This document shows, piece by piece, positions 33,437 through 63,462 of a stretch of 64,000 bases of DNA (position 1 is its first letter; every line of letters starts with the position of its first letter). The stretch lies in assembly GCF_014323725.1 (NCBI RefSeq), contig NZ_JABVED010000021.1, positions 368 to 64,367 on the forward strand, in the 5' to 3' direction. Made by a program: the position numbers and the translations under genes. This stretch comes from Actinokineospora xionganensis. Its GTDB lineage: Bacteria > Actinomycetota > Actinomycetes > Mycobacteriales > Pseudonocardiaceae. Under the pieces are notes generated by a model that was not told the origin of the DNA, ran no database searches, and saw only the letters and a list, made by a program, of their open reading frames with translations.

Positions 33437-33539
33437 ACACTCGCCGATTCGGCATTCACGGAGAACTTCCTGCTCAGGCCCGGCGATACGGTTCGTTTCA
33501 GTGTGCCGTCGCAACGCTGAGAAGGAGGCTGTCGCAGCC

Positions 33540-38569: not shown

Positions 38570-38704
38570 GGTGGAGCCTTCCGTCAACGTTGCCCGAGGC
38601 GAGGTGCCTCGGCTATGGCGTCGACCGAACGGACCAGGTTGTTACGGCGGTTTCCCGCCGCGGTACCGGCAAATGGATGCGGTGTCGACATTCGTTTACC
38701 GAAC

Positions 38705-45472: not shown

Positions 45473-46638
45473 CCGCCGCCGAGCCGAGCCCGCCGGGTGA
45501 CTCACTCGGCGACGGCGCCGCCGGGATGGCGCTACTGCCCTTCGAGCGGGCCCGCACCGATGACCCGGCCGCCGTGGCGGTCGCCCACCAGTGGGCCAAG
45601 CGGATGACCACCGGCACCGTGGCCGCGCATCCTGACCTCGCCAGCCTGTTCCGGGGTGCACCGGCGGTCGCGTTCGCTTTGCACACCAGCGGGCAGCCCG
45701 CCTACGCCCGCGCCCTGGACTCGCTCGACGAGCACATCGTCACGCTGACCCGTTACCGCCTGCAGGCCGCGCACGACCGCATCGACGAGGGCCGGTTGCC
45801 CGCGGTGCGCGAGTTCGACCTGATCAGCGGTCTGACCGGGATCGGCGCCTACTTGCTGCACCGCGACCGCCACTCTCAACTGCTGCGCGAGGTGCTGGCC
45901 TACCTGGTGCGGCTCACCGAACCGGTCCAGGTGGACGGCGACACGCTGCCGGGCTGGTGGTCGGCCGCCCCACCCGCCGACCGGCCCGCCGAGGACTGGC
46001 CCGGCGGGCACGGCAACCTCGGACTCGCGCACGGCGCGGCCGGGCCGCTTGCCCTGTTGGCCACCGCGATGCGCCACGGCACCACCGTGCCCGGTCAGGA
46101 GGCGGCGATGGCCACGATCGGGCAATGGTTCGACCGCTGCCGGGTCGGTGCCGGGCGGGCCGCGTGGTGGCCGGGCAGGATCACCCTGGCCGAGCAGCGA
46201 ACCGGCGTGATCACCCAGGACGGCCCGCAACGTCCGTCGTGGTGTTACGGCACGCCAGGGCAGGCCCGCGCACAGCAGCTCGCCGCCCTTGCGCTCGGCG
46301 ACCTGCAACGACGACAGCAGGCGGAGGACGCGTTCGCCGGGTGCGTCACCGACGACCGGCAACTCGTGCTGCTGCGGGACAACTCGCTGTGCCACGGCTT
46401 CGCCGGGCTCGTCCTCGCCGCTTGGCGCGCCGCCGCCGACGCCGCCCCCGGAAATGAACTCGCCGTCGTCGTGCCGCGCCTGCGCACCCGCCTGGAGCAG
46501 CGGCTGCACATCGAGGGCTCGCCCGACAGCGGCGGGCTGCTCGAGGGCGAAGCCGGGACGCGCCTGGCCGGACACACCGTCGACACCGACCAGCCGGAGG
46601 CGACCCAGTGGGACCTGTGCCTGCTGCTGTCCGGCTGA
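45469..46638 (+). CDS. Lanthionine synthetase C-like cyclase (LanC)
   Basis: 389 residues, alpha-toroid. Zinc ligands are Cys259 ('SWCYGTPG'), Cys308 and His309 ('NSLCHGFAG'), all present. 'GNLGLAHGAAGPLALL' carries the conserved catalytic His. The enzyme adds Cys thiols to the dehydroamino acids to close the lanthionine rings. Start codon overlaps the lanB stop, so the two are translationally coupled. Confidence 0.92.
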   Translation: MTAAEPSPPGDSLGDGAAGMALLPFERARTDDPAAVAVAHQWAKRMTTGTVAAHPDLASLFRGAPAVAFALHTSGQPAYARALDSLDEHIVTLTRYRLQAAHDRIDEGRLPAVREFDLISGLTGIGAYLLHRDRHSQLLREVLAYLVRLTEPVQVDGDTLPGWWSAAPPADRPAEDWPGGHGNLGLAHGAAGPLALLATAMRHGTTVPGQEAAMATIGQWFDRCRVGAGRAAWWPGRITLAEQRTGVITQDGPQRPSWCYGTPGQARAQQLAALALGDLQRRQQAEDAFAGCVTDDRQLVLLRDNSLCHGFAGLVLAAWRAAADAAPGNELAVVVPRLRTRLEQRLHIEGSPDSGGLLEGEAGTRLAGHTVDTDQPEATQWDLCLLLSG

Positions 46639-46688
46639 CCCGCTCCACCCCAGACCTGCACAATCACAATCACAACCGGAAGGAACCG

Positions 46689-47891
46689 ATGAACACCACC
46701 ACCGACAGCGCACCGGAGACGCTGCGGGACACCATGGTCGACACCGTCAAGAAGGGCGGGTACGCCCGCACCAGCGCGGTCGAGGCCGCGATGCGCGCCG
46801 TCCCGCGCCACCAGTTCGTGCCCGAGGCCACCCTCACCGATGCCTACGCCGACATCGCCGTCATCACCAAACGCGCTGCCGACGGCTCCGCCCTGAGCTG
46901 CGCGTCGGTGCCCACCGTCGTGGCGATGATGCTCGACCAACTCGACGTCCGCACCGGCCACAACATCCTGGAGATCGGCGCGGGCACCGGCTACAACGCC
47001 GCACTCCTCGCCGCCCTCACCGGACCGAATGGACAGGTCACCACCGTCGACATCGACCAGGAGGTCACCGCCGGAGCACGCCGCGGCCTCGACACCACAG
47101 GCAACCAGGACGTCGAGGTCATCACCCGGGACGGAGCGCTCGGCGCACCGGAGAACGGCCCCTACGACCGGATCATCGTCACCGTCGGCGCCTGGGACCT
47201 GCCCGCCGCCTGGCGCGAACAACTCGCCCCCGGCGGTCGACTCGTCGTGCCGCTGCGCTGGCGCGGACAGACCCGCAGCGTCGCGTTCGTCCGCGACGGC
47301 GACCGCCTCATCTCCGACCGCACCGACCTGTGCGGGTTCGTCCCCATGATCGGACAGGAAGGCGAACAGACCGGCACCATCGACACCGGCGGGCTGGTCA
47401 GCCTGTACTTCGATGTCGACCAAGGCATCGACCCCGCCGCCCTGCGCGGTGTGCTGGATCAGCCCAAGTCGACCGTCTGGTCCGACGTCACGGTCGGGCC
47501 CGCCGATTCGTTCGACGGGGTATGGCTGAACCTGACCGCCACCGACCCGGGGACCTGCCGCATCGCCGCCGAAGACGAGGCGATCAGCACCGGCTTGTGC
47601 ACCCCGGTGTTCCAGTGGCGGACCGCGGCGATCACCGACGGCGCCAGCCTGGCCTACCTGACCTACCGCCGCGTCGACGGCCCCGACCGGCGTTCCGAAC
47701 TCGGCGCGATCGGCCACGGCCCCGCCGGGCAGCAACTCGCCGAACGACTGTGTGCGCAGGTCACCGTGTGGGACCGCGACCGCGACCACCAGCCCCACAT
47801 CGACGCCTACCCCGCCGGAGCCCCGGTCACAGTGCCGTCGGCCGGGGTGGTCATCGACAAGCAGGACACGCGCCTCGTCCTGTCGCTCTGA
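46689..47891 (+). CDS. PIMT-type methyltransferase of the FxLD lanthipeptide system
   Basis: 400 residues. The N-terminal ~220 residues are a protein-L-isoaspartate O-methyltransferase fold: 'VEAAMRAVPRHQFVPEA' and the SAM motif 'NILEIGAGTGYNAALLAALTGPNGQVTTVDID'. The C-terminal ~180 residues are an extension typical of the 'methyltransferase, FxLD system' family. Related enzymes (for example OlvSA) methylate a core Asp, which collapses to a succinimide and then isoaspartate, a beta-amino acid. The Asp-Asp-Gly in the precursor core is the likely target. ATG with GGAAGGAACC, 50 bases behind lanC. Confidence 0.92.
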   Translation: MNTTTDSAPETLRDTMVDTVKKGGYARTSAVEAAMRAVPRHQFVPEATLTDAYADIAVITKRAADGSALSCASVPTVVAMMLDQLDVRTGHNILEIGAGTGYNAALLAALTGPNGQVTTVDIDQEVTAGARRGLDTTGNQDVEVITRDGALGAPENGPYDRIIVTVGAWDLPAAWREQLAPGGRLVVPLRWRGQTRSVAFVRDGDRLISDRTDLCGFVPMIGQEGEQTGTIDTGGLVSLYFDVDQGIDPAALRGVLDQPKSTVWSDVTVGPADSFDGVWLNLTATDPGTCRIAAEDEAISTGLCTPVFQWRTAAITDGASLAYLTYRRVDGPDRRSELGAIGHGPAGQQLAERLCAQVTVWDRDRDHQPHIDAYPAGAPVTVPSAGVVIDKQDTRLVLSL

Positions 47892-50320: not shown

Positions 50321-51898
50321 TCAGTGTGCTTCTTCCGCGACCGGCGCGAGGTCACCGTCGGCTGGGGCCTGAGCGGCCCCGAACGGCAACACGTGCTTGA
50401 GCTTGACCGCCACGACGACGGCCATGGTGGCCAGCAGCACCGCGCCGATGGTGGCCACGGTCTGCACACCGTCGGTGAAGGCGTCCCGCGCCGGTGAGAG
50501 CAGCGCGTCGGCCTCACCCGGGGACAGCTTGGCGGCCTCCACGGTGGCGCCTGCCAGGCTGTCCTTGGCGATGTCGGCGGTCTCCGCGTTCAGCCCGCCG
50601 GGCAGTGAGTCGGACACGTTGGCCCGGTAGACAGCCGTGCCGATGGTGCCCAGGACCGCCAGGCCCAGGGTGCCGCCGAACTCGTTGGCCATCTGCGCCA
50701 GCGAGCCCGCCGAGCCCATCTTCTCCGGCGGCGCGGAGGTGACGACCAGGTTGGTGCCCAGGCCCGCCATCGGAGCGCCGCAGAAGGCGATGATCGCGAA
50801 GCCCACGACCAGCGCGGTGGTGCCGGAGTCGGCGCTGATCTGGGTCATCCAGACCAGGGTGATGGCCGCGCCGAGCAGACCGGCCGAGATGACGTACGCC
50901 GGACGGAACTTGTTGGCCAGCTTCGGGCCGACCGCGAAGCCGATGGCGCCACCGGCCATGCCGGGGACCATCGCCAGACCGGCTTCGAGCGTCGACATGC
51001 CCTGCACCAGCTGGAAGTACAGCATCATCAGCAGCATGATCCCGCCGCCGGTCATGCTGTAGGACAGCTGCCCGGCCAGCGACGTGCCGATGGTGTTGTT
51101 CTTGAACAGGCTCAGGTCCAGCAGCGGGTCGCTGATGGTGCGCTGCCTGCGCAGGAACGCCCAGCCCGCGACCACACCGACGACGACCGCGACGACCGCG
51201 ACGGCGGAGAAGCCGTCCCGGGCCAGCGACTTGATGCCGTAGATGATCGGGAAGAGCGCGGCCAGCGAGAGCGCGACGCTGATGAGGTCGGGCTTGCCGG
51301 GCTGGCCGTTGCGGAACTCGGGCAGGAACTTCGGCCCCAGGACCAGCGCGGCGATGACGAACGGCACGCCCAGCAGGAACACCGAGCCCCACCACCACTG
51401 CGTCAGCATGGCGCCGCCGATGACCGGGCCGAACAGCGCGCCCATGGTGAACACGCTGCCCCAGATGCCGAACGCGGCGGCCTGCTGCTTCGGGTCCTGG
51501 AACATGGTGCCGATGAGCGAGAGCGTCGATGGGCCGAGGGTGGCGCCCGCGATGCCCAGCAGCGCGCGGGCCGCGATCAGGACCTCGGGACTCCAGGCGT
51601 AGGCGCAGAGCAGCGAGGCCACGGCGAACGCGGAGCAGCCGATCATCAGCAGCTTGCGGCGGCCGATGCGGTCGCCCAGGGTGCCCATCGTGACCAGGAA
51701 GCCTGCAAGCATGAACCCGTAGACGTCCATGGTCCACAGCTGTTCCATGCCGGTCGCGCCGAGATCCGACGAGAGATTCGGCAGCGCCAGCATCAGGACG
51801 AACAGGTCGATGGCCATGACGAAGGTCGGCAGCGCGAGCACCGCCAGCCCCAACCACTCCCGTCGCCCCGCCTTGGCAGGGGCAGTGTTGGCAGTCAC
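50321..51898 (-). CDS. 14-helix MFS exporter (EmrB/QacA family)
   Basis: 525 residues. 'LAVLALPTFVMAIDLFVLMLALPNLSSDLG' (TM1) and motif A 'GTLGDRIGRRKLLMIG' mark DHA2 drug:proton antiporters. The GTG at 51898 follows AGAGGAAAAG. Located between the YciI/ECF pair and the methyltransferases of the beta-tyrosine cluster, it is the likely product exporter and self-resistance gene. Confidence 0.88.
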   Translation of the reverse strand: MTANTAPAKAGRREWLGLAVLALPTFVMAIDLFVLMLALPNLSSDLGATGMEQLWTMDVYGFMLAGFLVTMGTLGDRIGRRKLLMIGCSAFAVASLLCAYAWSPEVLIAARALLGIAGATLGPSTLSLIGTMFQDPKQQAAAFGIWGSVFTMGALFGPVIGGAMLTQWWWGSVFLLGVPFVIAALVLGPKFLPEFRNGQPGKPDLISVALSLAALFPIIYGIKSLARDGFSAVAVVAVVVGVVAGWAFLRRQRTISDPLLDLSLFKNNTIGTSLAGQLSYSMTGGGIMLLMMLYFQLVQGMSTLEAGLAMVPGMAGGAIGFAVGPKLANKFRPAYVISAGLLGAAITLVWMTQISADSGTTALVVGFAIIAFCGAPMAGLGTNLVVTSAPPEKMGSAGSLAQMANEFGGTLGLAVLGTIGTAVYRANVSDSLPGGLNAETADIAKDSLAGATVEAAKLSPGEADALLSPARDAFTDGVQTVATIGAVLLATMAVVVAVKLKHVLPFGAAQAPADGDLAPVAEEAH

Positions 51899-52090
51899 TG
51901 TCTTTTCCTCTCGTGTTGTCGTCCTACGCACCTACGACGAACGAGCCACCGCGAAATCGACAGCGCCTCGACCGAGCGTTTTCGCGACGTCGGTGTCACC
52001 TATGGCAGATACATTGTTTCGTCGGCGTCCTGCGTACAGCCAGTGCCTCGCGCACGGCTCTGACATGCGTTTCGCATACGCCCTCGCTGG

Positions 52091-53635
52091 TCAGCCCCGG
52101 CGTTCGGCGGTGAGGAAGACGAACGTCCCCTCGTCCGACGACTCCTCCACTATGGACAGACCGGCCTCGGCGAACCACGTGTGCAGCTCGTCGAGTTCGA
52201 AGAGCAGGTGGCCCTCCGGACGGCTCGGGAAGTACTGGCACTCCTGGAAGTGCCGGGCGACCTTATCGTCGGACCACTTGAAGGTCATCATCGTCAGGCT
52301 TCCGCCCGGCTTGAGCACGCGGCCCATCTCGAGGATCGCCTCGCGCGCGTCGTCGGGGAACGCCTGCAGCGCGTTCCAGCAGTTGACCGCGCCGAGGCTG
52401 CCGTCACTGAACGGGAGGTTCAACGCGGACGCCTTCACCGCGGGCACCTCCGGCAGCGCGCCGCGCAGCACGTTGAGCATCGGCAGCGCCATGTCCAGGG
52501 CGATGAGCCGGTCGGCGCCGACGGCCTTGGCGACGATCTTGGTCCAGCGGCCCGCGCCCGCGGCGAGGTCGAGGACCGGGCCGTCGACCGGGCGCACGTG
52601 CGAGGCGATGTAGGAGTCCTCGTCGGTCGGGCTGATCTGGTCGCCCCAGTTGGAGCCCGCGATGCGCAGGTACGCCGGGCGCAGGACCGCCTCGTAGTAC
52701 AGGCCCATGCTCGGCATCTCGGCGAGCTTCTGCAGCAGGTCGTTGGTGGCGTCGTCGGCTTCCTGGTCCTCCCGCACACCGGCGGAGAGGTCGAGGATGC
52801 CGTTGGCGATGGCGAAACCGGTGGCGCACTTGGGGCAGCGCACACCGTTGTCGGAGAACTCCAGGCCGCCGTGGCAGGTCGGGCAGCGCAGCGACTCGAC
52901 GTGCTTGGCGAAGACCGCGGTTGACTGGCCGGTCGGCTCGGGCAGGATCGCGTCCTCCGGCGACATCGCGGTCGCGAGGGTGGACGCGGGCTTGTTGTTC
53001 GCCACCGACCAGTACGCGCGGGCCCCGGTGTAGCCGAGCACGGTGAGCGTGTCGTTGTTCCAATTGGACTCGATCTGTTCCGCGGTCAGGCTCTTGATCC
53101 AGCCCGCGGTGAAGTCCTTCTCGTTCTCGTCGAGCACCCACACCGACGGCGACGGCCACACACGGCCGAGGTCGGGTTTCGCCGGGTCGAGCTGGGCGAG
53201 CGCCCGCTCGAGCCGGGTCTGGTCGTCGGCGTCGAGGTTCAGCGGCGCGACGGCGGCGAGGACGGCCTCGCGGTCGGCCGGGAAGTGCGAGAGCAGGTAC
53301 AGGAAGGCCAGCGTCAGCGGCTCGCCCTTCGCCCCGGTGCCGGCCAGGTCGAGGTAGCGGCCCAGGCCCGCGTGCACGGCGGTGAAGACGTCGGCGTCGC
53401 CGGTCTCGGCCAGCAGTCCCAGCAGAATCGCGAGGTAGCCCTGACGGTCGGTGTCGACCAGGTCGAGGTGCTCGACCAGCACGGGCGTACCCTGCCGGGC
53501 CAGATCCGTTGCCGCGCCGCCGTTCCACAACCCGCCGACCAGTCGCCGGTACTCCGACTCCAGACGATCAGGTGCGGCGTTCGCGAAAGACTTGACCAGT
53601 TCCGCGACGGTCGAATGGATCGTGGAGTCACTCAT
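52091..53635 (-). CDS. Methyltransferase with N-terminal helical domain and zinc ribbon
   Basis: 514 residues. The first ~250 residues form a helical, repeat-like domain I do not recognise. A zinc ribbon follows, 'RCPTCHGG..DNGVRCPKCATGF' (two CxxC pairs, Trm112-like, about residues 255-285). A class I SAM methyltransferase then has motif I 'GPVLDLAAGAGRWTKIVAKAVG' and 'LNLPFSDGSLGAVNCWNALQAFPD'. The fused ribbon resembles sugar/lipid or antibiotic methyltransferases of the UbiE-like type. ATG chosen behind AAAGGA. Part of the leftward tailoring operon; probably methylates the natural product. Confidence 0.8.
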   Translation of the reverse strand: MSDSTIHSTVAELVKSFANAAPDRLESEYRRLVGGLWNGGAATDLARQGTPVLVEHLDLVDTDRQGYLAILLGLLAETGDADVFTAVHAGLGRYLDLAGTGAKGEPLTLAFLYLLSHFPADREAVLAAVAPLNLDADDQTRLERALAQLDPAKPDLGRVWPSPSVWVLDENEKDFTAGWIKSLTAEQIESNWNNDTLTVLGYTGARAYWSVANNKPASTLATAMSPEDAILPEPTGQSTAVFAKHVESLRCPTCHGGLEFSDNGVRCPKCATGFAIANGILDLSAGVREDQEADDATNDLLQKLAEMPSMGLYYEAVLRPAYLRIAGSNWGDQISPTDEDSYIASHVRPVDGPVLDLAAGAGRWTKIVAKAVGADRLIALDMALPMLNVLRGALPEVPAVKASALNLPFSDGSLGAVNCWNALQAFPDDAREAILEMGRVLKPGGSLTMMTFKWSDDKVARHFQECQYFPSRPEGHLLFELDELHTWFAEAGLSIVEESSDEGTFVFLTAERRG

Positions 53636-53717
53636 CTTCGCGTGTCCTTTCACCCAGTGTGTCGCCGTAAACGATGCTCGCAGCGACAGCCCGCCGCGGT
53701 CGTCCTCTCACGTGCGA

Positions 53718-53789
53718 AGTGGTGTGTCTGCCGACCTTGACCCGCTCTCGACCGGCCTATACCGGGTCAATGCCGACAGACACACCACT
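53718..53789. repeat. 27-bp near-perfect inverted repeat between two methyltransferase genes
   Basis: The left arm (53718-53744, starting AGTGGTGTGTCTGCCGACCT) and right arm (53763-53789) match at all but about three positions around an 18-base loop. The right arm touches the stop codon of the upstream methyltransferase gene (53788). No T-run follows, so it is either an attenuator/processing hairpin or a short palindromic element. Confidence 0.8.
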
Positions 53790-54615
53790 ACCCCCGGTAC
53801 GACTTGCGCGCGGAGACGATGACGTAGCCGATCTGGTCCTTGCGCGGGGCGTAGAAACCGGTGTTCTTCTTGGAGAACTCGGTGATCGCGCCCTCGCCGA
53901 ACTTCGCCGCGACCTCGGTGCGCCGGGTCATCGCCGCTTCGAGGTACTTGGTCTTCATGCCGAAAACCCTTGGGCCGCACTGGGTGTACTCCTCGACGGC
54001 GAAACCGGCGGCGGTGCTCAGCGCCAGCCACTCGTCGAGGGTCGGCAGCGTGCCGAGCTTCAGCGTGGTCATGAACTTCGCCAGCCGCTCGGGGTCCTCG
54101 TGCGAGCGGAGGCTGAAGTCGGAGAAGGTGACGCGCCCGCCGGGGCGCAGGACACGGTGGAACTCGCGCAGCACGACCTCCAGGTCGGGCGCGTTCTGCA
54201 GCGACTCCAACGCGAGGATGGCGTCGAACGTGTTATCCGGATAGGACAGTGACATGAAGTCGCCGTACTCGAACTTGACCGCGTCCGCCACGCCCGCCGC
54301 CGCGGCGCGCTCGTTGGCCTTGTCGACCTCGAACCCGCTGACCGTGACCCCGGTGACCCGCGCGCCGTACTCTTTGTTGACGAAGATCGCCGTCTCGCCG
54401 GGCCCGCAGCCCGCGTCCAGCACGTGCTCGCCGGGGCGCAAGCCCAAAGTGGCCGTGACCTTCTGGCTGATCCGGTGCAGGGCCTCGGTCAGCGGCGCGT
54501 TGTCTTCCCGGTCGTACCAGTACCACATGTGCAGCTGCCCCTCGCGGATCTCGTCCTCGATGGGCGCGCGTTCGTCGTAGTGCCGTCCGATGTCGGCCGA
54601 GTCGATGATGCTCAT
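53788..54615 (-). CDS. Class I SAM methyltransferase (small-molecule C/O-type)
   Basis: 275 residues. The SAM motif is 'EHVLDAGCGPGETAIFVNKEYGARVTGVTVS' (about residues 64-95). The N-terminal 'QLHMWYWYDREDNAPLTEALHRISQKV' and 'DFMSLSYPDNTFDAILALESLQNAPD' resemble the geranyl-diphosphate / rifamycin / sterol methyltransferase branch. It starts in an ATGA overlap with the reductase stop, so the two are coupled. Product tailoring in the beta-tyrosine cluster is inferred. Confidence 0.88.
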   Translation of the reverse strand: MSIIDSADIGRHYDERAPIEDEIREGQLHMWYWYDREDNAPLTEALHRISQKVTATLGLRPGEHVLDAGCGPGETAIFVNKEYGARVTGVTVSGFEVDKANERAAAAGVADAVKFEYGDFMSLSYPDNTFDAILALESLQNAPDLEVVLREFHRVLRPGGRVTFSDFSLRSHEDPERLAKFMTTLKLGTLPTLDEWLALSTAAGFAVEEYTQCGPRVFGMKTKYLEAAMTRRTEVAAKFGEGAITEFSKKNTGFYAPRKDQIGYVIVSARKSYRG

Positions 54616-55202: not shown

Positions 55203-55366
55203 GCCACACATCGTGTTCGCCCGACGGACGAGCCCACATCTCCGCGCGTGCTCAGTAGCCCGGCCGACGGCAACCGGGAAGATGCGACGGCGGTGACCTG
55301 CGGGGAACGATGGATCGCGACGTGACCCGCGTTATCCGGCGTGCGGTCCCACGAGGAGGAGACCGA
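55203..55366. promoter_or_regulatory. Divergent promoter of the beta-tyrosine cluster
   Basis: 164 bases between the divergent reductase and solute-binding-like genes, the natural control point of both arms. GAGGAGGAGACCGA is the rightward ribosome site. I see no clear operator palindrome. Confidence 0.5.
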
Positions 55367-56788
55367 ATGACGAGCAAGATCGACATCGACGTCTGGGTAG
55401 CCGACCTGAACTTCCCCGGGTGGATGGACCGCTGGCACGCGCAGGCCGCCGAGTTCAGCCGGATCCATCCCGAGTACCGGGTCAACGTCCGGGGCATGAA
55501 CTTCTTCTCCTTCCCCGAAGACGTGGCCAAGGAGGTCGCGGAAGGTCGCAGGCCCGCGCTCGCCGAGTACTACTTCTACGCCAACCAGGTGGCCCGCGAC
55601 GCCGTGGCGCCCGACGGAAGTCCACTGTGGACGTCGGTCACGAAGGCGGTCGGCGACCGCACCGAGTTCCTCGGCGAGCCGGTCATGCTCGACGACCTGC
55701 ACCCGGCGTTCCGCGACTACTACACCGTCGGCGGCGACATGGACTCGCTGCCGTCGGTCGGCACGACGAGCCTGCTGTTCGCCAACCGCGAGCTGCTTGA
55801 GAAGGCCGGGGTGTCGGAGCTGCCGAGGACCTGGGACGACGTGACCTCGGTGTGCGAGGCGGTCTCCCGCGTCCAGGACGGCCCGTCGCACGCGATCACG
55901 TGGTCGAACCACGGCACGTTCGTGCAGCAGGCGCTGGCCACTCAGGGCGGCTTCCTCACCGACAACCGCAACGGCCGCGACGCCCGCGCCACCACGATGG
56001 ACCTGGCGTCGAAGGAGATGATGACCTGGGTCGAGTGGTGGAACGGCCTGCACAAGGCGGGCCACTACCTCTACACCGGCGGGTACCCGGACTGGGCGGG
56101 CACGCTGCAGGCCTACCGCGACGCGCACGTGGCGATCCGGATCTCCTCGTCCAACGACGTCAACTACATGGCGCACGCGGCCAAGCTCGGCGGCTTCACC
56201 ATGGACGTCGATGTGTTCCCGCACAACGACAACTCCCCCTACGTCGGCAACGCAGTCGCGGGCACGTCGATGTGGCTGGGCAACAACCTCGACGAGGACG
56301 TCCAGGAGGGCGCGCTCGCGTTCCTGATGTGGATGCACAACCCGGTCAACGTCGCCCAGCGGCACAAGGACAACAGCTTCGCCCCGATCACCAAGGCGTC
56401 CTACGACCTGCTCAAGGACGAGGGCTGGTTCGAGCAGCACCCGTACCACGCGCTGACCTACGACCACCTGCTCGCCTTCCCGGCCTCCACCGGCAAGTCG
56501 GGCATCCCGCTCTCGGAGGGCGCGGTGTTCGGCGACTTCGCCGGCGTGCAGGACGTGATGGTGCACGCGATGGGCGACGTCCTCGCCCGCGGCGCGGACC
56601 CGTTCGACCGGTTCACCCAGGCCACTGGCGAGGCGCAGAAGCTGCTCGACGCCTACAACCACTGGGCGCTGAACACCCCGCGCAAGGCCGCTGACATCCC
56701 GGGCAGCAGCCACCGCGTCGAGTTCTGGAACGACGTCGCCCCCTACACCGCTCAGGACATGGAGAACGTGGTCCCGCTGAACGGCTGA
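55367..56788 (+). CDS. Solute-binding-protein homologue without signal peptide
   Basis: 473 residues. The fold of family 1 ABC sugar-binding proteins is clear: 'IDVWVADLNFPGWMDRWHAQAAEFSRIHPEYRVNVRG', 'DSLPSVGTTSLLFANRELLEKAGVSELPRTWDDVTSVCEAV', 'GNAVAGTSMWLGNN' and 'ALAFLMWMHNPVN'. It starts MTSKIDIDVW with no signal peptide or lipobox, and there are no ABC permease or ATPase genes. It must act in the cytosol, as an enzyme or a carrier of a pathway intermediate. First gene of the rightward operon. Repurposed binding-protein folds (THI5, MqnA/MqnD) are known precedents. Confidence 0.82.
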   Translation: MTSKIDIDVWVADLNFPGWMDRWHAQAAEFSRIHPEYRVNVRGMNFFSFPEDVAKEVAEGRRPALAEYYFYANQVARDAVAPDGSPLWTSVTKAVGDRTEFLGEPVMLDDLHPAFRDYYTVGGDMDSLPSVGTTSLLFANRELLEKAGVSELPRTWDDVTSVCEAVSRVQDGPSHAITWSNHGTFVQQALATQGGFLTDNRNGRDARATTMDLASKEMMTWVEWWNGLHKAGHYLYTGGYPDWAGTLQAYRDAHVAIRISSSNDVNYMAHAAKLGGFTMDVDVFPHNDNSPYVGNAVAGTSMWLGNNLDEDVQEGALAFLMWMHNPVNVAQRHKDNSFAPITKASYDLLKDEGWFEQHPYHALTYDHLLAFPASTGKSGIPLSEGAVFGDFAGVQDVMVHAMGDVLARGADPFDRFTQATGEAQKLLDAYNHWALNTPRKAADIPGSSHRVEFWNDVAPYTAQDMENVVPLNG

Positions 56789-56840: not shown

Positions 56841-58256
56841 GTGAGCGACGCTACAAAAACTCGCGCGGTGGTATTGGGCGGAAGTATCGCCGGCCTGTTC
56901 GCGGCCAGGGTCCTGGCCGACGCCTACGACGAGGTCCAGATCGTCGACCGGGACACGCTGATCGATGTCGCGGGCCCGCGCCGCAGCTGCCCGCAGGGCA
57001 AGCACATCAACGGCCTGCTCGCCCGCGGCCAGCAGGTCATGGAGGAGTTCTACCCGGGCATCACCAACGAGATCTTCGCCGACGGCGTGCCGACCGGCGA
57101 CCTCTGCGGCAACGTGCGCTGGTACTTCAACGGCGTCCGCATCCAGCAGCAGGAAGCGGGCCTGACCTGCGTCTCGGCCAGCAGGCCGATGCTGGAGAAG
57201 CACATCCGCCGGCGCACCGCGGCGCTGCCGAACGTCGTTTTCGTGGAGCAGCACGACATCCTCGGCCTGGCCACCACGCCGGACAAGAGCAAGGTGACCG
57301 GCGCGCGCGTGCAGGCCCGCGGCCAGAAGCGCGAGAAGGTCATCGACGCCGACCTGGTGATCGACGCGACCGGCCGCGGCTCCCGCACGCCGATCTGGTT
57401 GCAGGAACTCGGTTATGGGCTGGTCGAGGAGGAGAGCAAGAAGGTCGGCCTGGGCTACGTCACCCAGCACTACCGCCTCAAGTCCGACCCGTACCACGGC
57501 GACCTGTCGATCAACCCGGTCGCCAACGCCACCCTTCCCCGCGGCGCCATCTTCACCAAGACCGACGGCGGACGGGTCGAGCTGACCGCGTACGGCATTC
57601 TCGGCGACCACCCGCCCACCGACCAGCAGGGCTTCTACGACTTCGTCAAGACGCTCGCCGCGCCGGAGATCCACGAGGCGCTCATGCACGCCGAGCCGCT
57701 CGACGAGCCGGTGGCCTTCCGGTTCCCGACCACGCTGCGCCGCCACTACGAGAAGCTCGACCGCTTCCCGGACGGCCTGCTGGTCGTCGGCGACGCGGTG
57801 ACCTGCTTCAACCCGGTGTACGCGCAGGGCATGACGGTCTCGGCGCTCTCGGCCCTGACCATCCGCAACCACCTGCACAGCGGCGCCGCGCCGCAGCCGA
57901 TGCAGTACTTCCAGGACCTGTCGAAGAACGTGATCGACCCGCCGTGGGAGATGACCAACACCGTCGACCTCAGCTTCCCCGGGGTCGAGGGCGAGCGGCC
58001 GCTGCAGATGCGGTTCGCGCAGAAGTTCCTCAAGCTCGTGCAGTACGCGGCGACGAAGGACAAGGCCATCGCCGCGCAGTACATGCGGGCCGCGGGCCTG
58101 ATCGACGGACCCGAGAAGATGCAGCGCCCCGGCTTCATGCTCAAGGTGCTGCTGAAGGGGATCTTCGGCCCGGCGAAGAAGACCCCGGCGCCGCCGCTGG
58201 TGCCGATCGCGGGCGGCCACGTCGAGACCTGGTCGGAATACCGCAACGCCGCGTAA
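56841..58256 (+). CDS. FAD-dependent monooxygenase/epoxidase
   Basis: 471 residues. FAD-binding 'VVLGGSIAGLFAARVLADAYDEVQIVDRD' (GxGxxG variant GGSIAG), then 'PRRSCPQGKHINGLLARGQQ', the hallmark of the MonCI/LasC-like epoxidase branch. 'VIDATGRGS' and 'LLVVGDAVTCFNPVYAQGMTVSALSA' (GD motif) follow. It probably oxidises a double bond or aromatic ring of a pathway intermediate. GTG behind AAGGAGATATCC. Closed by a terminator, so the NRPS genes have their own promoter. Confidence 0.88.
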   Translation: MSDATKTRAVVLGGSIAGLFAARVLADAYDEVQIVDRDTLIDVAGPRRSCPQGKHINGLLARGQQVMEEFYPGITNEIFADGVPTGDLCGNVRWYFNGVRIQQQEAGLTCVSASRPMLEKHIRRRTAALPNVVFVEQHDILGLATTPDKSKVTGARVQARGQKREKVIDADLVIDATGRGSRTPIWLQELGYGLVEEESKKVGLGYVTQHYRLKSDPYHGDLSINPVANATLPRGAIFTKTDGGRVELTAYGILGDHPPTDQQGFYDFVKTLAAPEIHEALMHAEPLDEPVAFRFPTTLRRHYEKLDRFPDGLLVVGDAVTCFNPVYAQGMTVSALSALTIRNHLHSGAAPQPMQYFQDLSKNVIDPPWEMTNTVDLSFPGVEGERPLQMRFAQKFLKLVQYAATKDKAIAAQYMRAAGLIDGPEKMQRPGFMLKVLLKGIFGPAKKTPAPPLVPIAGGHVETWSEYRNAA

Positions 58257-58309: not shown

Positions 58310-58384
58310 TTCCTTTGCCGGACAAGGAAATCCTGCGCACTACACGAGATGCGACCCGGTGTGACCGGGCCGGACGATAGAGCG

Positions 58385-61300
58385 GTGAGTCCACCCGCGT
58401 CCGATGTGCCCAGCCCCCACGGTTTCGACAAAGCCACGAGTTCCGCGGTCCAGAACGGTTTATGGTTCCTGGAGAAGGTGGATTCGGAATCGGCGGCGTC
58501 GACCGTGTGTCTGGCATACCAGGTGACGGGGGAACTGGATCTGGACGCGTTGCGGGCCGCGTGGCAGGCCGTCCTCGCCCGACACCCGATGCTGCGCACC
58601 ACGTTCACCGAGCGCGCGGGCGTGCCGGTGCCGGTGGTGGCCGCCGAGGGCGCGCCGCTGGTGCTCGCCGATTTCGTCGACGAGCCCGAGGCCGTGGCGG
58701 ACTGGGCGCGCGAGCAGGCCGCCGCGCCGCTGCGGATGTCCGAGGGACTCGCCCGGCTGGCGGTGGCGAAGTTCGGCGAGTGGGACCACGCGGTCGTCCT
58801 GTGTCTGCACCGGGCCGCGGCCGACGACGAGTCGGTGTCGATCGTGCTGACCGACCTGTCGGAGGCGTACACCGGCGCCAAGCTGGGCACCCCGCCCGAC
58901 ACGCAAGCGCTTTCGCCCAGCTACGCGGAGTTCGCTCGGGACGAGGACGAGCGCGCCGAGGACCCCGCGTTCGCCGAACGCCTGCGCTGGTGGACCGCGA
59001 CCGTCACCCCGGCCCCGACCGCCGCCACGCTGCCGGTCGACCGGGCACGTCCGGCCGGGCGGTCCACGGCGGGCGACGTCCTGCGGTTCGAATGGGGCCC
59101 GGAGGTGACCCGGCCGCTGGGCGAGCTGGCCCGCGCGGCGGGCACGACACCGTTCGCCGTGCTGCTGGCCGCTTTCCAGGCCCTGCTCGGCCGCTACGGC
59201 AACGACGAGCGGATCGCCGTGGGCTGCCCGGTGTCGGTGCGCCCGCGCCCGGAGTTCGACGGCGTGGTCGGCGCGTTCGAGCACCCCTTGGTGTTCACCG
59301 CCGACCTGTCGGGGCGACCGACGCTGCGGACCGTGGTCGAGCGGGTGGCGCGGCTGAGCGCCGAGGCGCTGCAGCGCGCCGACGTGCCGTTCGCCGACGT
59401 GGTGGCGGCCACCAAGGCCGAGCGCGCCCCGCGGCGGATCCCCCTGTGCGACACCATGTTCGTCTTCCACGACCAGGCCAGGGCGGATCTGGTATTCGAC
59501 GGCGCGACGGTGGCCCCGCGCGTCGTGGAGAACGGCTCGGCCGTCACCGACGTGACCCTGGACCTGCGGCTGGTGAACGCGAACCTGCTGGGAGCGATGG
59601 AGTTCCGGTCGTCCATGTTCGACCGCGCGGGCGCCGAGCGACTGCTCAGCCAGTTCCAGATGCTGCTCACCGCCGGGCTGCGCGACCCCGACCGGCCCAT
59701 CGCCGACCTGGCCCTCGACGGCGCGGACCGGATCGCGAACGCCGTGCGCGACGCCGACCAGATCACCGCCGCCGCGCCGGCCGCGCGCACCGCGAACGAG
59801 CTGTTCCACTCCCAGGCGCAGCTGCGCCCCGAGCAGATCGCGCTGTCGGCCGGAAACCAGGTCACCACCTACCGCGAACTCGAACGGCTCGCCGCGGTCA
59901 TCACGGCGGCACTGGTGTCCGACGAGCTCATCGGGGGCAGGCCGGTGGTCGTGCGGATGCCCGCGGGCAGGCTCCAGGTGGCCGCCGTGATCGCCGTGCT
60001 CGACGCGGGCGCGCACGTGGCGTGCCTCGGCGAGGGGGACACGGGTGAGCGCGGGAAGTCCGTCCTGACCGAACTGCAGCCCGCGTGCCTGATCGTCGAC
60101 GGCGACCCGGCGCAGGACGAGCTGGCCCAGTGGTACCTCAACGAACTGGGCGGCACGGTGCTCGACGCGGCGCTGCTCGAACCGGACTCGGCCCCGCGGC
60201 CGCACGTGCCGAGTGTGCGCAACGCGCGGGCCTACGTCACCTACACGTCGGGGTCGACCGGGCAGCCCAAGGGCATCCCGCAGACCCACGCCACCCTCGC
60301 CCAGTTCGTCACCTGGTTCTCCGGTGAGTTCGCCGTCCGGCCGGGGTCGCGGATGGCGCAGTGGGCCGCGCCCGGCTACGACGCGGCGCTGATGGAGATC
60401 TTCGCCGGGCTGGTCGCCGGGGCGACGCTGTGCCTGGTGCCCGACCGGATCCGGGCCAACCCGGAGAAAATCGTCGACTGGCTCATCGAGCAGCGGGTCA
60501 CCCTGTTCCAGACCGTGCCCAGCTTCGCCCGGCAGGTGCTCGGCGTGGTGAACACCCGTGGAGTGGCGGCACAGCTGGCCGCGCTGGACCACGTGCTGCT
60601 GGCGGGCGAGGCGCTGCCCGCGGACCTGGCGAACGGCCTGCGCGCCGCCCTGCCGTCGACCCGGCTGGTCAACCTGTACGGGCCGACGGAGTCGATCCTG
60701 GCCACCTGGCACGAGGTCGCGGGCGAGCTGAACGGCACGTCGCCGATCGGGCGGTCCATCCCCGGCAGGCAGGTCCTCGTGCTCGACGACGAAGGCAGGC
60801 CGTGCCCCGACGGGGTCACCGGGAACCTCGTCATCCGCAGCCCGTACCTGACCGAGGGTTACCTGGGCGCCGAGGACCGCTCGGCGTTCGAGCCGGTGAC
60901 CGACCTCGCCGCGTACGGCATCGACGGCTCCCACTGCTACCGGACCGGCGACATGGGCGCCCGGCGCCGCGACGGCGTCCTGGAGTTCCGCGGTCGCAAG
61001 GACTTCCAGATCAAGTTCAACGGAATGCGGATCGAGCTCAGCGACATCGAGTCGGCGCTCTCGGCGCACGAGTCGGTGGCAGACTGCGCGGTCATCGCGG
61101 TCACGACGTCGGACGGGCTGGTGAGCAGGCTGGTCGGCTACGTCGTGCCGCGCCGCACCGAGTCCGGCGACGCGGTCGGGTCGGCGAGCGTCTGGCGCGC
61201 GGCGCTGCGCACCCGGTTCGGCAAGGCCATGCCGCCGGTGTCGTTCCAGACGATGATCGGCCTGCCGCGCGGCATCGGCGGCAAGGTGGACCGGCGCAGG

Positions 61301-61624
61301 CTGCCCGATCCCGCCGCCGCGCCTAGCCGGGCCGCCGCCACCCCCAAGACGCCCGTGGAGACCGCTGTCGCCGAGCTGTGGGCCGGGCTTCCCGGTGTCC
61401 GGCCGCCCGGCGCCGACGAGTCGTTCTTCGCCGCGGGCGGCCGGTCATTGCAAGTCCTCGTGCTGCTCGACCAGGTCCGCGAGCGGTTCGACGTCGAGGT
61501 ATCGCTACACGATTTCCTAGCCGCACCAACGGTGACCGGACTATCCACAGTGGTCGAATCGCACACAGTTTCCCTGACAGCCGCAACTGGAACCAGACGG
61601 GGTGAAGAACGTGACTCTGCTTGA
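58385..61624 (+). CDS. NRPS module C-A-T; C domain lacks the catalytic His
   Basis: 1079 residues. Residues ~10-450 are a condensation domain whose HHxxxDG motif reads H142-R143-A-A-A-D147-D148; the second (catalytic) His is Arg. Residues ~470-970 are an adenylation domain with A3 'YTSGSTGQPKG', A5 'NLYGPTES', A7 'YRTGDMG', A8 'GRKDFQIKFNGMRIELSDIE' and A10 'GGKVDRR' (catalytic Lys). My manual specificity code is D-A-M-Q-L-A-L-L-A-K, not matched to a known one. The carrier Ser is S1021 (GGRSL). GTG at 58385 chosen; an in-frame ATG lies 36 bases upstream. Its 3' end overlaps the aminomutase gene by 23 bases, so they are coupled. It likely activates beta-tyrosine or another acyl unit. Confidence 0.9.
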   Translation: MSPPASDVPSPHGFDKATSSAVQNGLWFLEKVDSESAASTVCLAYQVTGELDLDALRAAWQAVLARHPMLRTTFTERAGVPVPVVAAEGAPLVLADFVDEPEAVADWAREQAAAPLRMSEGLARLAVAKFGEWDHAVVLCLHRAAADDESVSIVLTDLSEAYTGAKLGTPPDTQALSPSYAEFARDEDERAEDPAFAERLRWWTATVTPAPTAATLPVDRARPAGRSTAGDVLRFEWGPEVTRPLGELARAAGTTPFAVLLAAFQALLGRYGNDERIAVGCPVSVRPRPEFDGVVGAFEHPLVFTADLSGRPTLRTVVERVARLSAEALQRADVPFADVVAATKAERAPRRIPLCDTMFVFHDQARADLVFDGATVAPRVVENGSAVTDVTLDLRLVNANLLGAMEFRSSMFDRAGAERLLSQFQMLLTAGLRDPDRPIADLALDGADRIANAVRDADQITAAAPAARTANELFHSQAQLRPEQIALSAGNQVTTYRELERLAAVITAALVSDELIGGRPVVVRMPAGRLQVAAVIAVLDAGAHVACLGEGDTGERGKSVLTELQPACLIVDGDPAQDELAQWYLNELGGTVLDAALLEPDSAPRPHVPSVRNARAYVTYTSGSTGQPKGIPQTHATLAQFVTWFSGEFAVRPGSRMAQWAAPGYDAALMEIFAGLVAGATLCLVPDRIRANPEKIVDWLIEQRVTLFQTVPSFARQVLGVVNTRGVAAQLAALDHVLLAGEALPADLANGLRAALPSTRLVNLYGPTESILATWHEVAGELNGTSPIGRSIPGRQVLVLDDEGRPCPDGVTGNLVIRSPYLTEGYLGAEDRSAFEPVTDLAAYGIDGSHCYRTGDMGARRRDGVLEFRGRKDFQIKFNGMRIELSDIESALSAHESVADCAVIAVTTSDGLVSRLVGYVVPRRTESGDAVGSASVWRAALRTRFGKAMPPVSFQTMIGLPRGIGGKVDRRRLPDPAAAPSRAAATPKTPVETAVAELWAGLPGVRPPGADESFFAAGGRSLQVLVLLDQVRERFDVEVSLHDFLAAPTVTGLSTVVESHTVSLTAATGTRRGEERDSA

Positions 61625-63206
61625 CACCAACCTGTCCGTTGACTTCGACGGCGAGAACGTCGAGATCCTGGACATCCGCCGCATCGCCGAGGACGGTGCT
61701 CCGTGCAAGGTCGCCCCGGCCGCGCTGACCCGGGCCGCGGCCAGCAGGCAGCAGTTCGAGGAGACCGTCCGGGCAGGCGTCCCCGTCTACGGTGTCACGA
61801 CCGGTTACGGCGAGATGATCTACATGCTCGTCGGCACGGCCAAGGAAGTCGAGCTGCAGACCAACCTGGTGCGCAGCCACAGCGCGGGCGTCGGCCCGAT
61901 CTTCGCCGAGGACGAGGCGCGGGCGATCGTGGCCGCCCGCCTCAACGCGCTGTCCAAGGGCTACTCCGCTGTCCGCCCCGAACTGCTGGAGCGGCTGGCG
62001 CTGTACTTGAACCTGGGCATCACCCCGGCCATCCCGGAGATCGGCTCGCTGGGCGCCAGCGGCGACCTCGGGCCGCTGGCCCACATCGCCTCCACGATCA
62101 TCGGTGAGGGCTACGTCCTGAAGAACGGCCGCCGCACCGAGACCGCCACCGTGCTGCGCGAGCACGGCATCGAGCCGCTGGAGCTGCGGTTCAAGGAAGG
62201 CCTCGCGCTGATCAACGGCACATCGGCCATGACCGGCCTTGGCTGCCTGGTCGTGAGCCGGGCCATGGAGCAGGTCAAGCAGGCCGAGATCGTCACCGCG
62301 CTGGTCGTGGAGACCCTGCTCGGCTCGACCAGCCCGTTCCAGGCCGAGGGCCACGACATCGCCCGCCCGCACCAGGGGCAGATCGACACCGCGTTCAACA
62401 TGCGCAACCTGCTCGACGGCAGCGCGCTGGCGGTCTCGCACCACGAGCTGCGCACCCAGGCCGCGGCCCAGTCCAGCGGCGACGTGTCCCGGACCGACGT
62501 CTACATCCAGAAGGCCTACACCCTGCGCGCGATCCCGCAGGTCGTCGGCGCGGTCCGCGACACCCTGTACTACGCGACCAAGACGATCGACATCGAGCTC
62601 AACTCGTCGAACGACAACCCGCTGTTCTTCGAGGGCAAGGAGGTGTTCCACGGCGCGAACTTCCACGGCCAGCCGGTCGCGTTCGCCATGGACTACGCCA
62701 CCATCGCCCTCACCCAGCTGGGCGTGTTCTCCGAGCGGCGCACCAACCGGCTGCTCAACCGCTACCTGTCGGGGCTGCCGGAGTTCCTGGTCTCCACCGG
62801 CGAGCCGGGCCTCAACAGCGGCTTCGCGGGCGCGCAGTACCCGGCCACCGCGCTGGTCGCCGAGAACCGGACCATCGGCCCGGCCAGCATCCAGAGTGTC
62901 CCGTCCAACGGTGACAACCAGGACGTCGTGTCGATGGGCCTGATCGCGGCCCGCAACGCGCGCCGGGTGCTGTCGAACAACAACTACATCCTGGCCGTCG
63001 AGTTCCTCGCCGCCGCCCAGGCCGTGGACGTCTCGGGCCGCTACGACGGCCTCAGCCCCGCGGGCAAGGCGGCGTACAACCAGATCCGGTCGCTGGTGCC
63101 GACCCTGGAGCACGACCGCTACATGTCCGACGACATCGAGGCGGTCGCCGGAGCCCTGTCCCGCGGCGAGTTCCTCGAAGCCGCCCGCGATGTCGAACTG
63201 CGCTAG
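61602..63206 (+). CDS. Tyrosine 2,3-aminomutase (MIO enzyme, SgcC4-like)
   Basis: 534 residues. The self-formed MIO cofactor comes from A152-S153-G154 ('GSLGASGDLGPL'). The catalytic Tyr63 ('VYGVTTGYGEMIYM'), Glu71 and His93 ('LVRSHSAGVG') fall at the same numbers as in SgcC4 of the C-1027 pathway, and His93 marks tyrosine over phenylalanine. The 'QSVPSNGDNQDVVSMG' signature is intact. It converts L-tyrosine to beta-tyrosine. An ammonia-lyase activity (giving coumarate) is the alternative, but the close SgcC4 pattern and the NRPS context favour the mutase. It overlaps the NRPS gene and precedes the carrier by 10 bases. Confidence 0.88.
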   Translation: MKNVTLLDTNLSVDFDGENVEILDIRRIAEDGAPCKVAPAALTRAAASRQQFEETVRAGVPVYGVTTGYGEMIYMLVGTAKEVELQTNLVRSHSAGVGPIFAEDEARAIVAARLNALSKGYSAVRPELLERLALYLNLGITPAIPEIGSLGASGDLGPLAHIASTIIGEGYVLKNGRRTETATVLREHGIEPLELRFKEGLALINGTSAMTGLGCLVVSRAMEQVKQAEIVTALVVETLLGSTSPFQAEGHDIARPHQGQIDTAFNMRNLLDGSALAVSHHELRTQAAAQSSGDVSRTDVYIQKAYTLRAIPQVVGAVRDTLYYATKTIDIELNSSNDNPLFFEGKEVFHGANFHGQPVAFAMDYATIALTQLGVFSERRTNRLLNRYLSGLPEFLVSTGEPGLNSGFAGAQYPATALVAENRTIGPASIQSVPSNGDNQDVVSMGLIAARNARRVLSNNNYILAVEFLAAAQAVDVSGRYDGLSPAGKAAYNQIRSLVPTLEHDRYMSDDIEAVAGALSRGEFLEAARDVELR

Positions 63207-63216
63207 GAGGTACTCG

Positions 63217-63462
63217 ATGAGCACTATCTGTCAACAGGTCGAAGCGATCTGGAACGACGTGCTGAATGTCCGAAGTGGACAGGAAGAGGCGACGTTCTTC
63301 GAACTGGGCGGCGAGTCGATCTCGGCGGTCCGCCTGGTCTCGCGGATCGAGGACGAGCTGGAAATCCTGATCGACGTCGGTGACATCTTCGAGGACGACC
63401 CGACCCTGTCCGCGCTCATCAGCACGGTCACGGCCAAGGCCGCGGAGACGTCGGCGGCCTGA
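63217..63462 (+). CDS. Stand-alone peptidyl carrier protein
   Basis: 81 residues. The phosphopantetheine site is Ser34 in 'FFELGGESISAVRLVSRIEDEL'. TAGGAGGT ribosome site, 10 bases after the aminomutase. Probably carries beta-tyrosine while flavoenzymes modify it, like SgcC2. It can be loaded by the A domain of the upstream NRPS in trans. Confidence 0.93.
   Translation: MSTICQQVEAIWNDVLNVRSGQEEATFFELGGESISAVRLVSRIEDELEILIDVGDIFEDDPTLSALISTVTAKAAETSAA

Follow-up and report, generated by a model that had tools for sequence, protein, structure and literature searches.

The closest described system is the C-1027 (sgc) pathway of Streptomyces globisporus, whose gene cluster is described as one region of 75 kb with 56 ORFs (PMC2657911). 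Ansamitocin in Actinosynnema and gerumycin in Pseudonocardia are cited as cases in which the genes for one product lie at two loci (PMC5484115). Here we analysed a stretch of 64,000 nucleotides, the window, from the genome of Actinokineospora xionganensis (G000), a draft of 70 contigs. The window lies on the 90 kb contig C14, and features past its end are given in window-extended coordinates (C14 position minus 367). We consider it likely that an island on C14 is the β-tyrosine and tailoring half of one split enediyne pathway, the core of which is at a separate locus on contig C9. Our main comparisons were with the nearest sister (G001, single contig), a single-contig relative in the same genus (G013), and Actinokineospora fastidiosa (G007) and Actinophytocola algeriensis (G016), both with a contiguous enediyne cluster. 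The island extends beyond the window to about 76165, and its features are as follows.

33501–64000, no strand: window part of the tailoring island (homologues in enediyne loci; absent at the colinear G001 site)
33501–34904, plus strand: free condensation enzyme, SgcC5-like (PDB 4znm, 455 bits; HHSAVD intact)
34962–36206, minus strand: acyl-CoA-dehydrogenase-type flavoprotein (ACAD1), HsaA-like (model matches; homologues in enediyne loci)
50321–51931, minus strand: MFS exporter (Pfam; homologues of 47–66% in the G013, A. fastidiosa, G001, Actinophytocola, Amycolatopsis and Salinispora enediyne loci)
52091–53653, minus strand: long methyltransferase (Pfam; 57% in A. fastidiosa)
53788–54615, minus strand: methyltransferase (Pfam; 76% in G013, 68–70% in A. 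fastidiosa and Actinophytocola)
55310–56788, plus strand: extracellular solute-binding protein (SBP; Pfam; homologues of 41–67% in the loci compared)
56841–58256, plus strand: FAD-dependent monooxygenase (homologues in five contiguous enediyne clusters)
58382–61624, plus strand: synthetase, C(degenerate)-A-PCP (Pfam; 1080 aa, no stop)
61602–63206, plus strand: tyrosine 2,3-aminomutase, SgcC4-like (534 aa; TIGR03832, PDB 2ohy, ASG triad)
63190–63462, plus strand: free peptidyl carrier protein (PF00550)
67113–67547, window-extended: SgcJ/EcaC-like protein
67571–68755, window-extended: ACAD2
68985–70565, window-extended: HpaB-type hydroxylase, SgcC-like (PDB 4oo2, 926 bits)
72088–73335, window-extended: P450
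73935–75320, window-extended: FAD-linked oxidase
75377–76165, window-extended: SDR, followed by glycyl-tRNA synthetase

On its model scores, the protein encoded at 61602–63206 is a tyrosine 2,3-aminomutase, which confirms the observation that had been made from the window. It scored 912 bits against TIGR03832 (tyrosine 2,3-aminomutase, cut-off 501), and its top solved structures (2ohy, 2rjr and 2qve, 807–808 bits, 2ohy at 808) are labelled tyrosine aminomutase and are, we assume, SgcC4. The A152-S153-G154 triad found in it is presumably the MIO-forming one. An ordinary histidine or tyrosine ammonia-lyase, yielding urocanate or coumarate, would belong to the same family (PF00221), but the score against the hutH model TIGR01225 was 523 bits, under its cut-off of 539, and a second PF00221 member on contig C67 (39% identical) stays under the TIGR03832 cut-off. 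We dropped the ammonia-lyase identity on these scores and regard it as most improbable. The aminomutase reading frame overlaps that of the free carrier protein, which has the phosphopantetheine serine motif GGESI and homologues of 72% in both A. fastidiosa and G013.

By homology to C-1027, the enzyme steps of the arm pathway can be proposed. The SgcC4-like aminomutase would convert tyrosine to β-tyrosine, and the A domain of 58382–61624 would load this onto the free carrier at 63190–63462. The SgcC-like hydroxylase would then act on carrier-bound β-tyrosine, probably using reduced FAD supplied by an SgcE6-like enzyme, and the free SgcC5-like enzyme (33501–34904) would couple the β-tyrosine arm to a core supplied by the C9 locus with its PKSE, cassette partners and reductase. 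Cooperation of the two loci is a prediction, as is the product. The synthetase has the order Condensation, AMP-binding, PP-binding, with a best start at about 58382; counted from 57944, the ORF would overlap the preceding gene. Its Condensation motif reads HRAAADD, the second His of HHxxxD being lost, and its active-site segments are common to the synthetases of other enediyne loci. This also holds for most segments of the A domain code, D-A-M-Q-L-A-L-L-A, which was read by eye at presumed positions. The best solved structure for the free condensation enzyme was 4znm, which we take to be SgcC5, and the next scored 122 bits. For the monooxygenase at 56841–58256 the nearest solved structures were polyether epoxidases (Lsd18/LasC, 186 bits).

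The sequence-only reading had assigned these genes to β-tyrosine, and the assignment was upheld by the TIGR03832 score and by the closest structures, 2ohy, 4oo2 and 4znm. It had also given the hydroxylase role to 34962–36206 and concluded that the hydroxylase had a different fold, not of HpaB type. The acyl-CoA-dehydrogenase type of ACAD1 was borne out, but this is a separate gene. Its homologues (58–68%) occur in the enediyne loci of G001, A. fastidiosa, Actinophytocola, Amycolatopsis and Salinispora, the G001 locus being one without an aminomutase. The SgcC-like enzyme sits 5 kb past the window end, and its closest solved structure is 4oo2, presumably SgcC; by sequence it belongs to the HpaB-type fold family.

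We found no ketosynthase on C14: none of the 37 PF00109 matches in the genome falls on this contig, and its 90 kb hold no standard enediyne cluster, a form present as a contiguous cluster in A. fastidiosa. The earlier reading without a visible enediyne synthase holds for C14 but fails for the genome, since contig C9 carries a PKSE cassette; the suggestion that the acceptor might be encoded outside the window fared well for the same reason. The inferences on HpaB and on the synthase failed because the window ends short of the hydroxylase and the PKSE is on C9. The core locus (C9, 49–77 kb) comprises the PKSE (C9:66010–71832, 1940 aa, KS-AT-KR-DH), which has the DYNE8 acyltransferase among its matches, its cassette partners and a flavin reductase. 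The partners are two DUF1702 proteins, one UnbV/ASPIC protein and one 4HBT-type (4HBT_2) thioesterase, and we take the cassette partners to be E3/E4/E5/E10. No Pfam family was assigned to the E5-like protein (G013 copy), but it is conserved beside the PKSEs of relatives. The flavin reductase adjoins the PKSE (PF01613; 5cho 178 bits, 4r82 and 4hx6 172 and 169 bits), and 4hx6 is, we believe, SgcE6. The gene set of nine-membered type is not clustered in one place here, the C14 island and the C9 cassette being separate. The pathway is probably nine-membered, a reading we base on the likeness of the arm genes to those of C-1027. For ring size, an E2/E3 subfamily assignment is mentioned in PMC5181780.

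The two sites, their gene content and their separation in relatives are directly observed. On the single contig of G013, the island and cassette gene sets recur 2.03 Mb from each other, and the same split is present in Amycolatopsis arida, Salinispora oceanensis and Micromonospora sp. CB01531. Genes of both sets lie within one cluster in A. fastidiosa and Actinophytocola algeriensis, with 34 kb and 67 kb, respectively, between aminomutase and PKSE. A draft in 70 contigs might have broken one cluster over C9 and C14, but such an assembly artefact is scarcely credible: at least about 63 kb would separate the sets even were the two contigs neighbours, the C9 and C14 sites are each colinear with a separate site of the single-contig G001, and G013 repeats the arrangement. 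At the colinear site in G001 the island is missing and the site is empty. The C9-type PKSE of G001 is one shortened open frame with fewer partner genes, beside which the thioesterase and four other genes are retained. A further enediyne cluster, this one contiguous, is also present in G001 and could by itself account for the reduction of its older PKSE.

A PKSE match of at least 52% identity was present in 71 of 79 aminomutase genomes (E-value limits 1e-200 and 1e-150; matches of 43–47% identity in G027, G046, G066, G082 and G091 were excluded before counting). Aminomutase and PKSE lay within 105 kb in 39 of the 41 pairs on the same contig; these distances omit G029, G031, G034, G036, G045, G047, G048 and G050, for which the aminomutase search gave no match within its limit. 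A Saccharothrix MAG, whose PKSE contig measures 66.6 kb, is a possible further split. Kibdelosporangium banguiense (G071; 2.98 Mb apart) and S. anulatus (G085) were dropped as further splits, as the surroundings of their aminomutases (60 and 40 kb, respectively) lack the hydroxylase and condensation partners. These two genomes, and the eight of 79 without a PKSE match at that level, from which it follows that the aminomutase can serve other products, speak for two independent pathways in A. xionganensis: C14 would make a β-tyrosyl amide or peptide on an acceptor of its own, and the PKSE on C9 would belong to an unrelated enediyne or be an orphan. The placement of the halves on different contigs and their unlike divergence patterns point the same way. 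Against this, the SgcJ-like, ACAD2 and HpaB genes of the island recur in enediyne clusters without an aminomutase (G001, G003 and G005), and among the 220 genes predicted across five contiguous clusters not one matches both loci (48 match the island only, 59 the C9 cassette only and 113 neither). We therefore think independent pathways unlikely, and the new β-tyrosyl peptide or amide first proposed is now the weaker reading. No match anywhere on contigs C9 and C14 was obtained for 108 of those 220 genes, which means that A. xionganensis lacks some parts of the pathways of those five clusters or encodes them elsewhere.

Thirteen genes were compared between G000 and G013. None showed a stop along the aligned stretch, and dN/dS was at most 0.39 in 12 of them; the values for the aminomutase (0.27), hydroxylase (0.11), PKSE (0.26) and glycyl-tRNA synthetase (0.18) count in favour of the split pathway. 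The set includes two genes outside the pathway or uncertain, the glycyl-tRNA synthetase and a carboxyl transferase. The exception was the free condensation enzyme, with 0.68 at 49% identity; its strong divergence, and that of the MFS (50%) and SBP (41%), counts against the split pathway. This variation in partner genes, and a sister (G001) lacking one half and holding a reduced copy of the other, would fit an island or cassette no longer functional in G000, but the stop-free alignments and low ratios make loss of function very unlikely.

Core and tailoring genes differed in their pattern of divergence (median ratio 1.44 versus 0.99). A plain division of one cluster would therefore not account for the two halves, and the difference suggests partly separate histories. 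The tailoring tree uses six genes and replaces an eight-gene version that included a weak G001 synthetase match (31%). Six of seven core genes were closer between A. fastidiosa and Actinophytocola algeriensis than to their counterparts in G000. By nearest distances the PKSE had seemed nearest to Saccharothrix and Amycolatopsis. The likelihood tree did not bear this out and grouped the PKSE with those of A. fastidiosa and Actinophytocola (SH-aLRT 95); the Saccharothrix/Amycolatopsis alternative was not rejected (p-AU 0.10). PKSE and aminomutase distances gave a Mantel correlation of 0.46 over 14 genomes (G071 excluded beforehand), and 25 of 5000 permutations were as high. We judged the promoter words shared by C9 and C14 to be no evidence: 46 of 11 bases (shuffles mean 25, maximum 43), 17 of 12 (8, 14), 6 of 13 (2, 5) and 1 of 14 (0.5, 3). 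It is conceivable, though we lean slightly against it, that enediyne pathways run in trans, a stably inherited core (PKSE) locus being served by a separate, recombining β-tyrosine/tailoring island with a partly independent history. The Actinokineospora core would then diverge like a housekeeping gene and the island would be a mosaic akin to clusters with other cores, in which case island swapping would exchange arms and cores between enediynes.

Genome mining finds enediynes through genes near the PKSE. With the core at a distant site, each half alone resembles an orphan; joined, the C9 cassette with its little tailoring and the PKSE-less arm island predict one product. Hosts of the split belong to the Pseudonocardiaceae and Micromonosporaceae, and the arrangement may thus be general. 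With such an arrangement, comparing the histories of both loci becomes a way to test how enediyne diversity arose, with arms exchanged against a fixed core. Our search of the open-licence literature returned no description of such a split enediyne cluster, a remark on Salinispora arenicola aside, and we do not claim that none is in print. That remark, in the portion available, divides enediyne matches into several families and mentions neither chromosomal separation nor β-tyrosine. The ansamitocin and gerumycin splits also involve two loci but are not enediynes, and the passages on them describe no core cassette parted from tailoring genes. The clusters of A. fastidiosa and Actinophytocola algeriensis contain homologues of both halves, but as one cluster each. 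No match to the apoprotein (PF00960) was found in the genome, control genomes being equally silent, and the PF04820 halogenase is absent from the C14 island and the C9 locus, its matches in the genome being on C34 and, weakly, C12 only. C-1027 differs in being a single region, as against two distant loci with neither a PF04820 halogenase nor an apoprotein match; the synthetase here is of the form C(degenerate)-A-PCP. Like C-1027, A. xionganensis has SgcC4-, SgcC-, SgcC5- and SgcE6-like proteins alongside a free carrier, and its PKSE is likewise accompanied by cassette partners.

The gene at 61602-63206 is a tyrosine 2,3-aminomutase by TIGR03832 (912 bits; cut-off 501) and by its nearest solved structures, which are tyrosine aminomutases (2ohy and kin, ~808 bits), and the beta-tyrosine aminomutase of the sequence-only reading was thus correctly named. 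It carries the ASG triad, which we take to be the MIO-forming triad. The window spans C14:368-64367 of a contig of 90256 bases (C14), and the last four genes listed are in window-extended coordinates.

33501-34904, free condensation enzyme; closest structure 4znm (presumably SgcC5), HHSAVD kept
34962-36206, acyl-CoA-dehydrogenase-type flavoprotein
Best start ~58382, synthetase with condensation, adenylation and carrier domains, preceding the aminomutase; condensation motif degenerate (HRAAADD)
61602-63206, tyrosine 2,3-aminomutase
63190-63462, free carrier protein, overlapping the aminomutase end
67113-67547, SgcJ/EcaC-family protein
67571-68755, second acyl-CoA-dehydrogenase-type flavoprotein (ACAD2)
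68985-70565, HpaB-type hydroxylase; nearest structure 4oo2 (presumably SgcC), 926 bits, next 647
72088-73335, P450

More oxidoreductase genes lie beyond the P450, and an FAD enzyme similar to polyether epoxidases is encoded at 56841. The earlier claim of a hydroxylase of different fold falls because an HpaB-type hydroxylase lies beyond the window; 34962-36206 is a separate gene. Also within the tailoring island are class I lanthipeptide genes at 42425-47891 (LanB, LanC, then a PCMT-type methyltransferase; LanB, the one of the two Lan genes compared, has no match in the corresponding region of G013, a single-contig genus relative) and, at 37952-38587 (-), a T6SS Hcp domain protein (PF05638, 97 bits) in an actinomycete. 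An open-ended ORF at C14:88898-90256 (L004:8899-10257) has a cyclic-nucleotide-binding-like segment and may encode an encapsulin shell protein of family 2.

A search for ketosynthases gave 37 PF00109 matches genome-wide, none of them on contig C14. An enediyne synthase (PKSE) of 1940 aa with KS, AT, KR and DH domains is encoded on contig C9 (125784 bases) at 66010-71832. Its neighbours encode two DUF1702 proteins, an UnbV/ASPIC protein, a protein that we take to be E5-like (its G013 copy matches no Pfam family), a thioesterase of 4HBT type and a flavin reductase, for which 4r82 and 4hx6 (the latter presumably SgcE6) are among the three best solved structures. In C-1027, SgcC pairs with SgcE6, according to a portion of PMC6165268. 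Even with C9 and C14 taken as neighbouring contigs, at least ~63 kb would separate the island from this cassette. To the left of the cassette, four consecutive genes (C9:40070-48429, L055) appear by eye to be a modified-peptide (cyclodehydratase-type) cluster, with homologues in G013 and the nearest sister, G001; a topoisomerase/gyrase A-like ORF (C9:92976-97142, L057) appears by eye to hold at least one intein.

We compared both loci with 220 mechanically called genes from five contiguous clusters, namely those of Actinokineospora fastidiosa (48 genes), Actinophytocola algeriensis (64), G001 (46), G003 (31) and G005 (31). A match needed at least 38% identity and 45% or more of the length covered, and we chose the bounds of loci and clusters after earlier locus comparisons. 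Matches in the island or cassette were found for 107 genes (48 island only, 59 cassette only, none in both), whereas 5 matched contig flanks only and 108 had no match. Taken together, island and cassette thus resemble a large part of a single enediyne cluster. The SgcJ-like protein (58-60%) and ACAD2 (68-76%) have homologues in enediyne loci of G001, G003 and G005, all without an aminomutase; the hydroxylase has homologues in 13 other genomes (76-94%), and the enediyne loci of G013, A. fastidiosa, G001, Actinophytocola and Salinispora have homologues of the P450 (71-92%) and of the FAD-linked oxidase (59-74%).

An aminomutase over the cut-off occurs in 3 of 16 genomes of the genus, Actinokineospora. 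In A. fastidiosa it lies 34 kb from the PKSE in a single cluster. In G013 (one contig, 7.4 Mb) the two, with 86% (PKSE) and 91% (aminomutase) identity to those of A. xionganensis, are 2.03 Mb apart; around the PKSE the genes are colinear with C9, and the island site has the same flanking genes with a partly rearranged interior. G001 (single contig) is the closest sister by glycyl-tRNA synthetase (94%, next 86%, among 13 other genus genomes with a match) and is colinear with both sites. Here the island is missing: the genes to its left (to 33436) are followed directly by a sigma-factor gene and glycyl-tRNA synthetase. The G001 PKSE (C1:6106124-6110545, L251), colinear with the intact one, is shortened to one open frame of 1504 aa in which residues 1-91 and 308-482 (ketosynthase region) are unmatched. 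That site keeps the thioesterase, the second DUF1702 and three other genes; the E5-like, UnbV, epimerase and reductase genes and one DUF1702 gene have no match in it. Loss of one half and damage to the other fit a dependence of the two loci. An alternative cause is redundancy with a further contiguous enediyne cluster in G001 (417-480 kb), which has hydroxylase and condensation genes; no aminomutase is over the cut-off in G001, this cluster included.

We then sampled aminomutase loci from public genomes (the best 80 of 102 relatives) and searched 79 for a PKSE (L203 left out). A match of at least 52% identity was present in 71, in some as pieces only. Both genes could be placed in 63 genomes, on the same contig in 41 (39 of them 7-105 kb apart) and on different contigs in 22, where the aminomutase contig was under 100 kb in 17. 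Of the 24 cases with the two genes far apart or on different contigs, six had their partner genes inspected (G039, G042, G057, G071, G081, G085). A split was upheld in Salinispora oceanensis (479 kb, one scaffold), Amycolatopsis arida (contig ends imply at least ~410 kb) and Micromonospora sp. CB01531 (at least ~160 kb), to which A. xionganensis and G013 are added; Kibdelosporangium and S. anulatus were dropped, and Saccharothrix was counted as neither. The SgcC4-like aminomutases L162, L165, L175, L184, L188, L195, L196 and L200, from genomes without such a PKSE match, are candidates for non-enediyne beta-tyrosine products.

With A. fastidiosa and A. algeriensis as reference pair, and genes chosen by us among those present in all three genomes, the relative divergence of A. 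xionganensis had a median ratio of 1.44 (0.97-1.84) for 7 core genes and 0.99 (0.76-1.08) for 11 tailoring genes (Mann-Whitney p 0.003; 0.002 with G013; 0.006 on rounded values). In a six-gene core tree, A. fastidiosa, A. algeriensis and G001 group together (100/100), and A. xionganensis and G013 fall outside this group. Six tailoring genes jointly rejected this grouping (p-AU 0.009); of four taken singly, one rejected it narrowly (0.047), two did not (0.08, 0.19) and the P450 showed it weakly. The case for separate histories is weakened because PKSE and aminomutase trees (14 genomes) have one six-genome clade in common. Between A. xionganensis and G013, core identities (PKSE 85%, E5-like 89%) are like that of glycyl-tRNA synthetase (86%); island genes range from 91-94% (aminomutase, hydroxylase, P450) through intermediate values to 41-50% (solute-binding protein, free condensation enzyme, exporter). 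The best fit, short of proof, is a stable core beside an island that recombines. In the same pair, dN/dS was 0.11-0.38 in 12 of 13 genes and 0.68 in the free condensation enzyme, with no stops within the aligned parts.

In C-1027, tyrosine is converted to beta-tyrosine, activated, loaded onto a carrier, hydroxylated there and transferred by the free condensation enzyme. By analogy, the aminomutase would form beta-tyrosine, which would be activated and carrier-loaded, then hydroxylated while carrier-bound with the help of reduced FAD; the free condensation enzyme would transfer the arm. We infer that the C9 core serves as acceptor, both loci giving one product. No PF04820 (halogenation) gene was found on the island or at the C9 locus; the apoprotein search of the genome gave no match, its control being silent too.

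Ansamitocin and gerumycin are known examples of split pathways, as a section of PMC5484115 describes, and part of a 2025 Salinispora survey reports a calicheamicin-like cluster in two halves (PMC12838356); the open-licence literature searched showed no other comparable enediyne core/arm split. The C-1027 genes occupy one 75 kb region (in an excerpt of PMC2657911), whereas the two gene sets of A. xionganensis lie at separate loci.
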